A stretch of DNA of 64,000 nt from Candidatus Nitrosomarinus catalina. GTDB lineage: Archaea > Thermoproteota > Nitrososphaeria > Nitrososphaerales > Nitrosopumilaceae. Position numbers and translations under genes: made by a program. The stretch spans positions 1,252,681 through 1,316,680 of the forward strand of contig NZ_CP021324.1 of the NCBI RefSeq assembly GCF_002156965.1. Direction: 5' to 3'. Below the pieces are notes generated by a model. The model saw only the letters and a program-made list of their open reading frames with translations, did not search any database and was not told where the DNA came from. Positions 59,062 to 64,000 of this stretch are shown here, in pieces; position 1 is the first letter of the stretch; each line of letters starts with the position of its first letter.

Positions 59062-59550
59062 TTGGCACTACAAAGTAGATTAACAGTATATGCAGCAATA
59101 GCTGGAGTTTTAGCTTTAATGGGAGGAATTGTGTATTATGCCAGTCTAGATAACGTATCACTTGATCAAGTTGAAGTTGAATTAACAGATGTAACATTAA
59201 GGGAAGCTGGAGAAGATGAAGCAAAATTTGTTTTAACATTTCTTGTAAAAAATCCTAGTGAAAAAATATACGTAGTTCCAGTGATTGCATACGAACTGTA
59301 TGATGATGATGTGTTATTAGGTTCTGGAAAATATTCTACAGAAGATGTAGCATTACCTGGTAGAGCACAAATTTTTGCTGGCGGTGAAGTTCCTCTGAAA
59401 AATACATTCATTTTAAAAAAATCTGAAGTTGGTTCAGAAATTTATCAATCTATGATAAATGGAAAAATAACAGACTATGTTGTTGAAGGAATCATTACAA
59501 CTCAAAGTACTTGGAGTGTAGCAGAAAATGAATTCAGATCTGAAAAATAA
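59062..59550 (+). CDS. Membrane-anchored LEA14/WHy-like protein
   Basis: A 162-residue protein, TTG start. An N-terminal membrane helix (about 9-28) precedes a WHy-type domain ('VKNPSEKIYVVPVIAYELYDD', about 73-93). It is related in layout to the protein at 30266-30841. The domain faces outside. Function unknown; members are tied to desiccation or salt stress. Confidence 0.7.
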   Translation: MALQSRLTVYAAIAGVLALMGGIVYYASLDNVSLDQVEVELTDVTLREAGEDEAKFVLTFLVKNPSEKIYVVPVIAYELYDDDVLLGSGKYSTEDVALPGRAQIFAGGEVPLKNTFILKKSEVGSEIYQSMINGKITDYVVEGIITTQSTWSVAENEFRSEK

Positions 59551-59556
59551 ATAAAG

Positions 59557-59631
59557 TGGGCCGGGAGAGATTTGAACTCTCGATCGCTGCCATGTCGAGG
59601 CAGCATCATAACCAAACTAGACCACCGGCCC
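59557..59631 (-). tRNA. tRNA-Val (anticodon GAC)
   Basis: The minus strand folds into a full cloverleaf of 75 nt: acceptor stem GGGCCGG/CCGGCCC with discriminator A, anticodon stem CTGCC/GGCAG, loop TCGACAT, five-base variable region, T arm GAGAG/CTCTC with loop TTCAAAT. Reading the seven-base loop normally gives anticodon GAC (Val). Position 33 is then C, where T is nearly universal. No intron and no encoded CCA (the next base upstream is not CC). Confidence 0.9.
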
Positions 59632-59704
59632 TTTGAAGTTAAAATCTATGTTCAGACATTATTAACGTTTAAGAAAAGAAAGGCTGAATAAAAAGAGATA
59701 ATGA

Positions 59705-60418
59705 GTGATAGTATTGGAAGATAGTTTTACTGATGAGGAAAAAAGGGGGTTCTATAAGGCGATTTATTCCAGAAGGGATGTTAGATCACATTTCATATCA
59801 AAACCTATTGAAGAGAACAAACTATCAAAAATTCTTCATGCAGCACATCATGCACCATCAGTAGGATTTTCTCAACCATGGAATTTTATTTTAATTAAAG
59901 ATCAAGCAACAAAAAAGAAAATTAAAGAATCATTTGATGAAGAAAAAAGACGTTCATCACAGGTGGTAGATGAACCAAAAAAATCTAAATATTTATCATT
60001 TAAACTAGAAGGAATTTTAGAATCTCCTGTTAATCTTTGCGTAACATATGATCCCACAAAATTTGGTCCATTTGTAATTGGAAGATCTAGTATTCCTGAA
60101 GCTGGACTATACAGTGTGTGTTGCGCAATTCAAAATTTATGGTTGTCAGCAAGAACAGAAGGTGTAGGGTTAGGATGGGTAAGTATTTTATCAAATGAAA
60201 TATTGAAAGAAACTCTCCAATTGCCAGAACATGTAGTTCCAGTGGCATACTTGTGTTTAGGTTATGTGAATGAATTTGCAGATAAACCTGATCTTGAAAC
60301 TGCCAAGTGGTTACCGAGATTAGATCTGAAAGATGTTGTATATTATGAAAAATGGGAAGATAAAGAAAATTCAGATTGGAAAGAAATTCAAGATTTAATT
60401 CAAACTAATCTTGATTAG
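59705..60418 (+). CDS. bluB: 5,6-Dimethylbenzimidazole synthase (BluB)
   Basis: A 237-residue flavin enzyme of the nitroreductase fold, GTG start. 'YSRRDVRSHF', 'HAPSVGFSQPWNFILI' and 'PEAGLYSVCCAIQN' match BluB, which breaks down FMN with oxygen to make the lower ligand of vitamin B12. Ammonia-oxidising archaea are known B12 makers. It stands alone between two tRNA genes, with no other cobalamin gene in the window. Confidence 0.85.
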   Translation: MIVLEDSFTDEEKRGFYKAIYSRRDVRSHFISKPIEENKLSKILHAAHHAPSVGFSQPWNFILIKDQATKKKIKESFDEEKRRSSQVVDEPKKSKYLSFKLEGILESPVNLCVTYDPTKFGPFVIGRSSIPEAGLYSVCCAIQNLWLSARTEGVGLGWVSILSNEILKETLQLPEHVVPVAYLCLGYVNEFADKPDLETAKWLPRLDLKDVVYYEKWEDKENSDWKEIQDLIQTNLD

Positions 60419-60419
60419 G

Positions 60420-60430
60420 CTTAAATAATT
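60420..60430 (+). promoter_or_regulatory. TATA-like box before tRNA-Arg
   Basis: CTTAAATAATT lies about 20-29 bp before the first base of the tRNA, the correct place for an archaeal TATA box. It begins just after the stop codon of bluB. Confidence 0.45.
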
Positions 60431-60448
60431 TAGAAGATTTTTTCTGCT

Positions 60449-60542
60449 GGGCTTGTAGCGCAGAGTCAAATTTGACGCGCAACATGGATAGCGCAGTAGC
60501 CTCCTAAGTTACAGGTCGAGGGATCGAAGCCCTCCAAGCCCG
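60449..60542 (+). tRNA. tRNA-Arg (anticodon CCT) with a 19-nt D-loop intron
   Basis: Acceptor stem GGGCTTG/CAAGCCC with discriminator G, anticodon stem GTAGC/GTTAC with loop CTCCTAA (anticodon CCT), T stem GAGGG/CCCTC. The D region is 19 nt too long. Removing 60464-60482 restores D stem GCGC/GCGC and a normal D loop with GG. The intron ends lie in two 3-nt bulges (AGA 60462-60464 and AAC 60481-60483) around a 4-bp GCGC/GCGC helix, the archaeal bulge-helix-bulge splice signal, and contain a GTCA/TGAC hairpin. The intron sits between positions 15 and 16, not at the common place 37/38. Confidence 0.92.
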
Positions 60543-60593
60543 CTTAATTTTAAAAATTGCAGGGATTAAATACAAAGAATAATAGAAAAAATT

Positions 60594-61121
60594 ATGAAAA
60601 TTGTAGTTATTTCAGCTAGTCCAAGAAAAACTGCAAATACACAGATAATTATGAAGTATGTTAACGAATATACAAAGTCAAAAAATCCAGATACAAAATT
60701 CATCAACCTTTCAGATGGAGAAATTGAATGTTATAGAGGATTTGATGTAGAGTATAATGAAGCAACCAAAAATGCTGCCAAAGACATTATGGAGGCAGAT
60801 GTATGGTTGATTGGTTCACCTATTTACAACTCATTTTTTAGTTCTGCATTAAAAAATCTCTTTGAATATGTTGATTATAAAAAAACAGAAGGTAAAGTTG
60901 CAGGAATGGCAATTTTAGCTGCTGGAAATATTGGTTTTGTTGATGTTCAAACAGTAATTACGCAATTGTTATCATACTTTAGAGTAATTACAAATCCAAA
61001 AGCGGTTTATCTAACAACTGAAATATTTACAGATAATCAAATTTCAAATGAAGATGCAAAAAATAGATTAAAAGAAATGGTAGATGAAACATTACAACTT
61101 GCATCTAAATTAAAAAAATAA
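60594..61121 (+). CDS. Flavodoxin-fold NAD(P)H-dependent FMN reductase
   Basis: A 175-residue protein. 'VISASPRKTANTQIIMKYV' is the flavin phosphate loop and 'IGSPIYNSFFSSALKNLFEYV' the second flavin contact. It belongs to the NADPH-dependent FMN/quinone reductase group. Electron acceptor unknown. A Cys-rich mini-protein gene follows 57 bp downstream. Confidence 0.86.
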   Translation: MKIVVISASPRKTANTQIIMKYVNEYTKSKNPDTKFINLSDGEIECYRGFDVEYNEATKNAAKDIMEADVWLIGSPIYNSFFSSALKNLFEYVDYKKTEGKVAGMAILAAGNIGFVDVQTVITQLLSYFRVITNPKAVYLTTEIFTDNQISNEDAKNRLKEMVDETLQLASKLKK

Positions 61122-61178
61122 TAAAAAAACTAGATTTATTCTAATTTTATAAAAGTCAAATACTATTCGTGTTATCTA

Positions 61179-61304
61179 ATGATATTGAGTTTAAAAAAAG
61201 ATCCAACAGAATTGTGTTCATGTAAATGTCATTATGGTGGAGCAGTAAGTTGTCCTGGATGTAAAAAAAATCACGGCACAGTCACTTGCCACTGTAAAGA
61301 TTGA
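61179..61304 (+). CDS. Cys-rich mini-protein (41 aa), possible metal binder
   Basis: A 41-codon frame from ATG 61179 to TGA 61302-61304. It has seven Cys and three His: Cys13, 15, 17, His18, Cys25, Cys28, His32, Cys37, His38 and Cys39, in 'CSCKCHYGG', 'CPGCKKNHG' and 'CHCKD'. The density recalls metallothioneins, or a compact two-metal zinc or copper site. I do not recognise a family. It lies just after the FMN reductase gene and stops 3 bp before the convergent membrane protein gene. Confidence 0.7.
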   Translation: MILSLKKDPTELCSCKCHYGGAVSCPGCKKNHGTVTCHCKD

Positions 61305-61306
61305 AA

Positions 61307-61774
61307 TTATTTTCTTTTTGAAGATAGGGCTTTAAGATTAGCTAGTTCTGCCTTTAATGATTCAATTTGTACAAGAGTTTTGAGATTAGAAATTTCTTGG
61401 TTTAGTCTTTCAATTTCATCATCTTTTAGCTCTACTGATGACTTTAATCCATTTAATTCTGTAGATAGTTCATCTTGAATTTGTTTAATTTCTGATAAAT
61501 TAACTTGTTTTGGAACTTCAACTTGTAGTGTTTGTGAATTACTCAAGCTTTTTTTTTGATGAACTGCGTACTCATGACCATGATTGGTTGCATAGTCTGC
61601 ACTTTTTTGAGATAACCAACAAGTTAGAGCCATAAACCATGTAATTGGTACTGCCATGATAAAGACAAAATTTAGAATTGGTGCATAATCATAAAATGGT
61701 GGCCACAATCCAGTTAAAACAGCAGCAAATCCTGCTGTAATGATGGTTGCCATATGATTTTTCCAATATCCCAT
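61307..61774 (-). CDS. Two-helix membrane protein with coiled-coil tail
   Basis: A 155-residue protein: two membrane helices (about 9-27 and 33-53), a cytoplasmic or outer His-containing loop ('NHGHEYAVHQ'), then 65 residues of heptad coiled coil ('LKSSVELKDDEIERLNQEIS'). Not recognised. Probably a scaffold or membrane-organising protein. Confidence 0.6.
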   Translation of the reverse strand: MGYWKNHMATIITAGFAAVLTGLWPPFYDYAPILNFVFIMAVPITWFMALTCWLSQKSADYATNHGHEYAVHQKKSLSNSQTLQVEVPKQVNLSEIKQIQDELSTELNGLKSSVELKDDEIERLNQEISNLKTLVQIESLKAELANLKALSSKRK

Positions 61775-61851
61775 GATTTATTGCAAAAATTCATTCTTTA
61801 TAATAGTAATGCTATTTTTTATAAAATAAAAGAATAAAATGGAAAGGAGAA

Positions 61852-62082
61852 TTATTCTGCTTCTTCAGGAGTACTTGATACTTTAGGCATATCAGATTGC
61901 AAAATTTGGATCTTTTGTAATAATTCAGTTCTTAGATCTCTTGCAACCCTTCGTACTGTAGGTCTTGGGACACCAAGTTCATCAACTACTTTTGTATAGA
62001 TGTCTTGTTTGTCAGTAACTCCTTTATCCAAATAGGAATTAATTGCTTCTTTAATTATCGTGCTTTGGTTTGTACGACTCAA
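61852..62082 (-). CDS. Small helix-turn-helix protein (76 aa)
   Basis: A 76-residue protein with a TTG start. Residues 8-50 form a helix-turn-helix: 'IIKEAINSYLDKG', then 'VVDELGVPRPTVRRVARDLR' as the recognition part. An acidic tail follows. Likely a DNA-binding regulator of a type common in this lineage. The 214 bp on to the cyclophilin gene are AT-rich without further signals. Confidence 0.7.
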   Translation of the reverse strand: MSRTNQSTIIKEAINSYLDKGVTDKQDIYTKVVDELGVPRPTVRRVARDLRTELLQKIQILQSDMPKVSSTPEEAE

Positions 62083-62296
62083 TAGATCATATTTCTAATC
62101 GATCTATATAACACTATAACTTGAAAAATTTAAAAAAATAGATATTAAAAATAATTGGAAAAAATTAAATCTTAATTTCTTGACTAACAAATGCAAAAAA
62201 AATTTGTAATTTTTTTAAAAAAATCTAACAAAGTATAGAAAATCTTCAGATGATTTATCAAAAAGACTTTTATGATAATTTAATCTCCAAAACTTT

Positions 62297-62773
62297 GTGA
62301 CTACTGCAAATATTGAAACTAATCATGGAAAAATTTCATTTGAATTATTACCAGACTTGGCTCCAGAAACAGTTAGAAATTTTGAAAAATTAACCAAAGA
62401 TGGATTTTATGACGGAACATTATTTCATAGAGTAATTCCCGGATTTATGATTCAAGGAGGAGACCCAAATACAAAAACTGACAATAAAGGTTCTTGGGGA
62501 ATGGGTGGACCAGGATATAACGTTAAAGCAGAATTTAGTTCAAGATCACATTTACGAGGAATTGTTTCAATGGCAAGAGCACAAGATCCAGATAGTGCAG
62601 GATCACAATTCTTCATTGTAACATCAGATAGTGCATTCTTAGATAGACAATACACAGTGTTTGGTCAAGTCAAAGAAGGAATGGATGTAGCTGATAAAAT
62701 TGTCAATATGGATAAAGATGGAAACGATTGTCCATTAGAAAAAGTTGTAATGACTAAAGTAACTTTAGAATAA
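62297..62773 (+). CDS. Cyclophilin-type peptidyl-prolyl isomerase
   Basis: A 158-residue protein, GTG start. 'FHRVIPGFMIQGGDP' (catalytic Arg), 'GSQFFIVTSDSAFLD' and 'YTVFGQVKEGMDVADKI' are conserved. No signal peptide, so cytoplasmic. Its stop codon is followed directly by the ATG of the PEF-tailed surface protein, with no gap. Confidence 0.95.
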   Translation: MTTANIETNHGKISFELLPDLAPETVRNFEKLTKDGFYDGTLFHRVIPGFMIQGGDPNTKTDNKGSWGMGGPGYNVKAEFSSRSHLRGIVSMARAQDPDSAGSQFFIVTSDSAFLDRQYTVFGQVKEGMDVADKIVNMDKDGNDCPLEKVVMTKVTLE

Positions 62774-63691
62774 ATGAATCACAAAATAATTTCTACAATC
62801 ATAATTTTTGGGCTCATAACTGTAATTCCAACAGTTTATGGTCAATTATCAATTGGTTCTGAAGCACAACAAGAATCAATTGAAGTAAAAATTAATTCAG
62901 ATGGAGAGATTGGGGTTATGCACATAGTAAGTTCTTCAAACATGCCAAGTTCTGTTCCCTTATTTATTGAAGTTGAAAATGAAGAAGATCTTAATGTGAA
63001 GATTACAAACGAATTAGGAGAAGAAATTAATTCAGGAATTGGATATGATGGACTTGGAAAAATAACTATCTTGGTATTACCATCAAAACAGAACACAATA
63101 ATTGAATATAATTTAGAAAATATGAAATTGGAAAATAATTTATTAACTACTGAGATTTCTTATCCTAAAAAATTTTCTGTTTTATTTGATGAAAAAACTA
63201 ATTTGGTATTTGCAAATGACAATATCATATTTTTAGATGATAAAAAAGGATTATCCATTAATGGTGGAGGAAATATGAAAATTCAGTTTTACTCTAATGA
63301 ATCAAAAATAATTAAGAACGTAACATGGGAAGAAAATGAATTTGATGTAGAAATTATTACAGATTCTGAAATTGAAAAATTTAATTTCAATCAACCAGAA
63401 AAAAGTATTAGTTTCCAAGTAAATGATGAAAATAAATTTGTAACAATTACAATGTCAGAAGAATTGTTAGGAGGTCCATATGTTACATTATTAGATGATG
63501 AAAAAATTAAACATGCAAAATCTATTAGAGATGGAGGTATTGTTTCATTGAATTTAAAGCCTGAAACAACAGGTCAAGTTACAATTATTGGAACTACAGT
63601 AATTCCGGAATTTTCGATGTTTATTCCATTAATTATGGGATTTATGATAATTTTGACAGTTCCATTAATGAAAAAGTTTAGTCTCCGCTAG
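62774..63691 (+). CDS. Secreted surface protein with PEF-type sorting tail
   Basis: A 305-residue protein: signal peptide (1-23, ending VYG), a beta-rich ectodomain of about 250 residues without Cys, and a tail 'VIPEFSMFIPLIMGF' followed by a hydrophobic helix and 'MKKFSLR'. This is the PEF(G)-CTERM layout, as at 6660-6753, so an archaeosortase probably processes it. It starts directly after the cyclophilin gene. The 3' end overlaps the zinc-ribbon gene on the other strand by 14 bases. Confidence 0.8.
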   Translation: MNHKIISTIIIFGLITVIPTVYGQLSIGSEAQQESIEVKINSDGEIGVMHIVSSSNMPSSVPLFIEVENEEDLNVKITNELGEEINSGIGYDGLGKITILVLPSKQNTIIEYNLENMKLENNLLTTEISYPKKFSVLFDEKTNLVFANDNIIFLDDKKGLSINGGGNMKIQFYSNESKIIKNVTWEENEFDVEIITDSEIEKFNFNQPEKSISFQVNDENKFVTITMSEELLGGPYVTLLDDEKIKHAKSIRDGGIVSLNLKPETTGQVTIIGTTVIPEFSMFIPLIMGFMIILTVPLMKKFSLR

Positions 63692-63833
63692 AACCACAAG
63701 AGCAAAAACCATATTCATCTATTCTAACATCACACACAGGGCATTTTTCACCATATTCAACTTCCCATGGCTCTTTACCAAAAAGTTTGAAATGATCATC
63801 AATTTCTATTGGAACTTCACGTTTTTTATCCAA
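63678..63833 (-). CDS. Small zinc-ribbon protein (51 aa, TTG start)
   Basis: A frame of 51 codons from TTG 63833 to TAA 63678-63680; an in-frame stop lies 21-24 bases upstream of the TTG, so no longer start exists. Two Cys pairs, CPVC and CSC near the C-terminus, make a likely zinc ribbon. The rest is acidic and aromatic ('HFKLFGKEPWEVEYGEK'). Not recognised. Confidence 0.6.
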   Translation of the reverse strand: MDKKREVPIEIDDHFKLFGKEPWEVEYGEKCPVCDVRIDEYGFCSCGSSGD

Positions 63834-63880
63834 TGATTTGTATAGATATAGAAACTATACATAGATTATCTGAGAAAATT

Positions 63881-64000
63881 ATGAAAATAGAATGCGGTTG
63901 TCATTGTATAAAGTGTAAAAGCACAAATCTGGAATCAAATAAAATAGGAATTACTGAAAAAGATGGATATTTTGACATGCATCACACGTGTCAAGAATGT
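63881..64000 (+). CDS. Cys-rich protein, N-terminal part (cut by window edge)
   Basis: ATG 63881 opens a frame of 40 codons to the window end. It has Cys in 'ECGCHCIKCKS' and again in 'HHTCQEC', with a likely zinc-ribbon fold (CxC, CxxC, then CxxC). It is divergent from the zinc-ribbon gene at 63833. Only the first part is visible. Confidence 0.55.
   Translation, partial: MKIECGCHCIKCKSTNLESNKIGITEKDGYFDMHHTCQEC

Follow-up and report, generated by a model that had tools for sequence, protein, structure and literature searches.

Small metal-binding proteins of archaea and bacteria

Archaeal zinc-finger micro-proteins are the described system that the small Cys/His protein treated here would most closely resemble in its working. 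Of 14 predicted zinc-finger micro-proteins of Haloferax volcanii that were produced, nine bound zinc and five were zinc-free, so that the motif alone is no proof of zinc (PMC11241148). The same study cautions that AlphaFold2 gives no prediction of whether sets of Cys residues of this kind turn tetrahedral, and it states that among the C(P)XCG micro-proteins one member regulates transcription and others give deletion phenotypes (PMC11241148).

The window, i.e., the whole stretch of 64,000 nucleotides analysed, encodes a protein which, like the haloarchaeal C(P)XCG micro-proteins (HVO_0758 and HVO_2753 of H. volcanii and Halobacterium Brz), is archaeal and shorter than 70 aa and has Cys residues predicted to be zinc ligands. 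By its motif, however, the window family lies outside the C(P)XCG group, which is defined by two C(P)XCG or similar motifs in fewer than 70 aa: CxxCG occurs in none of its 95 members, a single CPxC is present per protein, and only in size does the family agree with the definition of the group. To this CPxC it adds a CxCxCH motif, GGA and His residues that are invariant, and a pair of Cys at the C-terminus.

Bacterial metallothioneins (SmtA and BmtA, PF02069), which in the functional sense are metal-induced proteins with several d10 metal ions in thiolate clusters, are similar to the window family in their very short length, in CxC and CxxC spacing and in the use of Cys plus His. In contrast to them, the window family has no PF02069 match and keeps its non-ligand residues strictly. 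Copper chaperones of the CopZ/HMA type are also small, Cys-containing and, as predicted for the window protein, cytosolic, but their size and sequence differ from those of the window family, which has no match to a heavy-metal-associated domain in Pfam. As a candidate copper store, the Cys-rich protein Csp (NVIE_028200, 18 Cys) is reported in Nitrososphaera viennensis (PMC7785015).

Searches of known families give no closer relative. Neither the window protein nor its relatives have a Pfam match above chance, and at E ≤ 1 none of the 95 relatives matches a metallothionein (PF02069) or a heavy-metal domain. No family above chance is found in NCBIfam or PHROGs. A sequence search of the PDB gives nothing above chance, the best profile match being a RING finger (E 0.43, 15 residues). 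AlphaFold2 models of the window protein and of a member of a sister family (family B; see below) are both of low confidence (mean pLDDT of 56.3 and 65.5, respectively), and the latter model has no Foldseek match in the PDB. In the open-licence literature, no paper was recognised as describing a CxCxCH/CxxC/H family.

The small Cys/His gene and its start codon

Translation of the frame at 61179–61304 (+) gives MILSLKKDPTELCSCKCHYGGAVSCPGCKKNHGTVTCHCKD, 41 residues with seven Cys and three His; the opposite strand is interrupted by stops. The preliminary description of a 41-residue frame with a CxCxCH/CxxC/CHC layout is thereby borne out as to the open frame and its composition, but not as to the start, which is more probably TTG 61185. 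In 27 of 28 relatives at a common offset (L001–L028, of which L001 is the window's own copy; both strands of the relatives were read), the codon corresponding to TTG 61185 is ATG, GTG or TTG; the exception, L027, has GTC in this column and ATG two codons further on. ATG 61179 is not kept among relatives (e.g., ACA in L003–L005). L029 and L030 have shorter starts of their own, to which they were set manually, and stand outside this count. A start-codon tally for the 39-aa group is partly circular, as the script favoured a start about 10 codons upstream, and the count of 27 in 28 is the cleaner one. Because the start column is kept at TTG 61185 and ATG 61179 is not, the gene probably extends over 61185–61304 (+, stop included) and encodes 39 aa; translation and alignments A1 and A2 agree with this extent.

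The shortness of the frame and the variation of its start codon among TTG, ATG and GTG would suit a chance open frame from which no protein is made. In 200 first-order Markov windows, however, only 4 of 136,223 ORFs of 25–60 aa have at least seven Cys and at least three His, i.e., about 0.02 such Cys/His-rich small ORFs are expected per window. Further, the protein is conserved across genera of family f1, which we take to be Nitrosopumilaceae from the names of its records, despite synonymous divergence, and the start column is conserved as well. A chance origin is therefore hardly credible, and conservation rules it out. Pooled pN is 0.194 and pooled pS 0.647 in 68 representatives of the 39-aa protein, a ratio that is a rough upper figure only because synonymous sites are near saturation; judged from these substitutions, the gene is under purifying selection. 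The Cys/His ORF is a real gene, one per genome and part of the core in f1; the window genome (1,360,076 bases) has a single copy.

Conservation of the Cys/His pattern

Conservation of the Cys pattern had been named beforehand as the refuting test of the preliminary description, and the pattern is kept in 95 of 95 relatives. These relatives constitute alignment A2, which holds 95 f1 sequences out of 102 distinct cores gathered; the search for relatives sampled 24 genera, all families together. The core pattern, CxCxCH[FY]GGAxSCPxCKxxH, shows little variation. C11, C13, C15, H16, G18, G19, A20, C23, C26 and H30 are invariant in A2, S22, P24 and K27 are each present in 94 of the 95 relatives, and C37 is present in 91. 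All members are 27–48 aa long with seven or eight Cys and two to four His. A Cys occurs at position 34 in 82 relatives, whereas the window protein has Thr 34 and retains Cys 35; thus, the C-terminal CHC of the preliminary description holds for the window itself, and CxHC is the general pattern.

Because the gathering script demanded a motif (first Cys, first His, GG and CxxC), deviant members would escape it, and the invariant status leans on this choice, above all for C11, C13, C15, H16, C23, C26 and the GG pair. Conservation of the A, S, P and K residues, H30 and the C-terminal Cys was unprompted, and profile searches free of the motif brought back the same sequences as the motif gathering. 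The c-type haem-binding motif CXXCH is absent from all 95 members, and haem binding of that type was rejected.

An upstream element at the peptide gene

A TATA-like element specific to the peptide gene, AAAAGTCAAATACTA, is located at 61151–61165 (+) and is the sole copy in the 1.36-Mb genome. The TATA-like stretch is centred about 26 nt upstream of TTG 61185, a distance that fits leaderless transcription, and the transcript probably starts at TTG 61185 without a leader. The window retains only the left part of a longer upstream element, named here by the form AAAAGTCAAATA. In several f1 genera, (AAAA)GTCAAATATTAASATGACG stands ahead of the peptide gene. The 18-nt core, GTCAAATATTAAGATGAC, starts mostly 30–39 nt upstream of the script-chosen start and is matched at 18 of 18 positions in 5 of the 102 members and at 17 or more in 14, and both half-sites of GTCA-N10-TGAC are present in 13 of the 102. 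Members that overlap or closely trail the gene for FMN reductase (see below) mostly lack the element.

A 19-bp form was sought in nine genomes, selected in the knowledge that most of them have the element; in all nine it is found with two mismatches or fewer at the peptide gene only. Two sites elsewhere, with three mismatches, are no more than the background given by the reversed pattern as control (13 in all). Five of eight genomes (the window's included) each have one exact copy of the 15-bp left part, AAAAGTCAAATANTA, always at the peptide gene, with a control count of 0; the other three genomes have no exact copy. As it is found only at the peptide gene, the element points to control particular to that gene. 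A minimal upstream ORF in the element, ATG-ACG-TAG, was considered and dropped, several relatives having AAG, AGG or ATA at the ATG.

Neighbouring genes

Neighbourhoods were counted in the 74 of 80 named loci that have room to judge. On the upstream side, a gene for a BluB-like 5,6-dimethylbenzimidazole synthase (59705–60418, +; TIGR02476, 237.1 bits, cut-off 150) is present in 71 of these loci and is followed in the window by the gene for an NADPH-dependent FMN reductase (60594–61121, +; PF03358, 84.9 bits), an assignment with which synteny agrees. Between the two, a tRNA is matched by Rfam at 60472–60537 (+; 31.2 bits, cut-off 29); there is no ARAGORN call despite this match, and the tRNA gene looks as if it carries an intron. 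An Rfam scan of 59400–62400 found tRNAs only. Downstream, a convergent gene (61307–61774, −) encodes a 155-aa product, apparently a membrane and coiled-coil protein, and is followed by a gene for a small HTH-like protein (61852–62082, −); both are found in 74 of 74 loci, and neither product has a Pfam or NCBIfam family above the cut-off. HTH matches of the latter are sub-threshold only, and its role as a candidate regulator is speculative. A cyclophilin is also among the neighbours of the peptide gene.

The flavin reductase noted beside the peptide in the preliminary description is thus real, and it adjoins the peptide gene in 67 of 74 loci, the other seven being without it. A same-strand FMN reductase lies within the fetched locus of 89 of the 102 distinct members, and in 12 of the 102, belonging to some genera, the two genes overlap or are no more than 30 nt apart, which suggests co-transcription in these 12. 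As a functional link, however, the adjacency is weak: 5 of 11 genomes searched have an FMN reductase copy at 55–100% identity, but six keep the peptide with no such enzyme or with one of only 22–29% identity. Because these genomes bear the peptide without a close copy, the job of the peptide is independent of FMN reductase, which is a real but dispensable neighbour. Functional partnership with the enzyme was accordingly lowered when genomes without it were found.

Two other Cys-containing frames lie near the end of the window. A 51-aa protein encoded at 63678–63833 (−) has CPVC...CSCG and is closer to the C(P)XCG micro-proteins than is the 39-aa protein; its identity is 82–100% in most relatives listed and 71% in the distant L148. 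A frame at 63809–64000 (+), which leaves the window, has a CGCHCIKC cluster and, later, HH/C, and might encode a metal-binding protein.

Distribution in ammonia-oxidising archaea

In a class sample of 400 genomes, 202 match alignment A1 at E ≤ 0.01, of which 200 belong to f1 and two to f8, a family that would correspond to Nitrososphaeraceae. A match to A1 is missing in at least 20 f1 genomes of this sample, all misses listed being of f1, and these include four genomes of 96–99% completeness (G137, G140, G152 and G267); G137, a single contig of 2,045,086 bases, gives no match even at E 10. In a phylum sample of 300 genomes, 52 match A2 at E ≤ 0.05, of which 44 are of f1, and no f1 genome is among the misses listed. 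The eight matches outside f1 (E 0.0018–0.049, short stretches) are taken as chance. A scan of a genome collection gave 171 related stretches, of which 80 were kept; by their names these are mostly Nitrosopumilus or Nitrosarchaeum, and the rest Thaumarchaeota, Nitrosopumilaceae and two Nitrososphaeraceae. No relatives were found among phages (tblastn, three matches only, E 3–5), plasmids (tblastn, zero matches) or viral contigs. At one locus (L090:5893–6117, +), the peptide gene is tandemly duplicated, and the two units are fused in frame as one protein.

The archaeal AmoA (PF12942) is detected in families f1, f2, f3 and f8, and the window organism itself encodes it, so that its earlier characterisation as copper-dependent is fair. 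The Cys/His signature has been seen so far in three of these four AmoA-bearing families; for f2, three genomes of the phylum sample (G037, G053 and G129) have no homologue with A2.

Sister families

Comparison of the sequences would newly delineate a CxCxCH/CxxC/H family in ammonia-oxidising archaea, with the window family (A) in f1, families B and C in f8, and family D in f3 and f8. Family B was reached by way of a weak f8 match in G274. It is about 41–43 aa long with the consensus CDCxCHxKYGxKSICxKCIERHKxSPYYxIxKKF, and is present in 44 of 70 f8 genomes at E < 1e-8 and missing from 26. With its profile, 300 class genomes yield six weak matches besides the 33 found in f8 at E < 1e-15. Family C has the consensus MRQRFSLGNKCECMCHGKxGIxDFCGYCTTSHR and is found in 44 of 70 f8 genomes (E ≤ 0.01, five or fewer matches per genome), with some cross-hits to B. 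The hhalign probabilities are 93% for A and B, 92% for B and C, and 10% for A and C. The signature C-x-C-x-C-H-x(6,8)-C-x2-C-x3-H occurs in A, B and C, and its seven ligands are invariant in 52 sequences of the three families aligned together.

Family D consists of a 128-aa protein in f3 (L250:2219–2608, −) and a 123-aa protein in f8 (L221:961–1332, +), each with a signature of the CxCxCH/CxxC/H type, as compared with A–C by eye only, ahead of a helical-looking part. By BLASTP, the two are 49% identical over 114 columns; the helical-looking part is conserved, and the signatures differ slightly at the first Cys. Fusion of the signature to a second part is as expected of a folded module.

Of 31 loci of family B, among which L169 and L178 represent one place, 26 have a peroxiredoxin next to B. 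In one f8 locus (L243:4068–7686, genome G043), B is flanked by an FAD/NAD oxidoreductase on one side and by a peroxiredoxin with a thioredoxin-like protein on the other. An FMN reductase beside family C is found in G043 only, and the idea that it repeats the pattern of A was dropped as resting on a single genome.

Possible function of the 39-aa protein

Metal binding would be the best explanation of the conserved Cys and His residues, and zinc is the likeliest metal judging from the mixed ligands; we infer zinc in preference to copper, and an interaction or regulatory role. The protein would be a cytosolic mini-protein, as suggested by its charged N-terminus and the lack of a visible signal peptide, with a fold built on one or two metal ions, zinc being the likeliest, bound by the invariant C-x-C-x-C-H...C-x2-C-x3-H ligands and the C-terminal Cys pair. 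It would be transcribed from its own promoter, probably as a leaderless message from TTG 61185 and with a cis-element serving the peptide gene alone. Its task would be interaction or regulation, as a small module of the zinc-finger micro-protein type, and not the bulk storage of metal. This explanation is held with slightly better than even confidence. A folded metal site is preferred to a loose store because GGA, S, P and K are kept, because the number of Cys is nearly constant, and because the signature recurs in fused form. Counting against it are the density of Cys (7 of 39 residues), which is high for a plain zinc finger, the shift of the C-terminal ligand between Cys 34 and Cys 35, and the poor AlphaFold2 models with their empty Foldseek search.

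The preliminary description proposed a miniature metal store or copper chaperone, and a metallothionein-like store or a cytosolic Cu/Zn buffer or chaperone would bind several Cu(I) or Zn(II) ions through its thiols and imidazoles and hand them over. Seven or eight Cys in 27–48 aa with CxC and CxxC spacing would suit such a function, as would the host's being an ammonia oxidiser with AmoA and the presence of AmoA in f1 and f8, the two families in which strict homologues occur; the copper dependence of the hosts leaves room for a copper role. The strict retention of GGA, S, P, K and both His, however, goes beyond the needs of a store, none of the 95 members has a Pfam match above chance, and the neighbours (BluB-type, FMN reductase, HTH-like and cyclophilin genes) include no metal-homeostasis genes. 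The three f2 genomes without a homologue belong to an AmoA-positive family, and for copper storage Csp of N. viennensis is another reported Cys-rich candidate. Thus, of the earlier proposal, metal binding is kept, whereas a metallothionein-like store or copper chaperone is not supported beyond composition; such a store or chaperone is unlikely, though by no means negligible. A zinc-thiol redox switch, or a thiol partner of flavin or peroxide enzymes, in which oxidation of CxC/CxxC would free the metal and alter a partner active in flavin reduction in f1 or in the removal of peroxide in f8, would account for the frequent FMN reductase beside A, at times within 30 nt or overlapping, and for the peroxiredoxin beside B. 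This is more doubtful still, as linkage does not equal interaction: A and B have different neighbours, C has an FMN-reductase neighbour in a single genome, and the peptide persists in the six genomes without a close FMN reductase.

Implications

Ammonia-oxidising archaea run much of ocean nitrification and depend on copper; to our knowledge, their cytosolic metal handling is poorly known. In a wider and rather improbable proposal, the peptide would be the marine representative of a superfamily of mini metal modules in ammonia-oxidising archaea that has so far gone unrecognised and, in f1, a singly regulated core metal/redox sensor, with GTCA-N10-TGAC marking a dedicated or self-controlling switch. 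If this were true, a protein of 39 residues would act as a metal/redox sensor. A core, single-copy 39-aa protein with metal-type ligands and a unique upstream element is a small target that can be synthesised, and it shows that very short genes of ammonia-oxidising archaea are recognisable by protein and promoter conservation combined.
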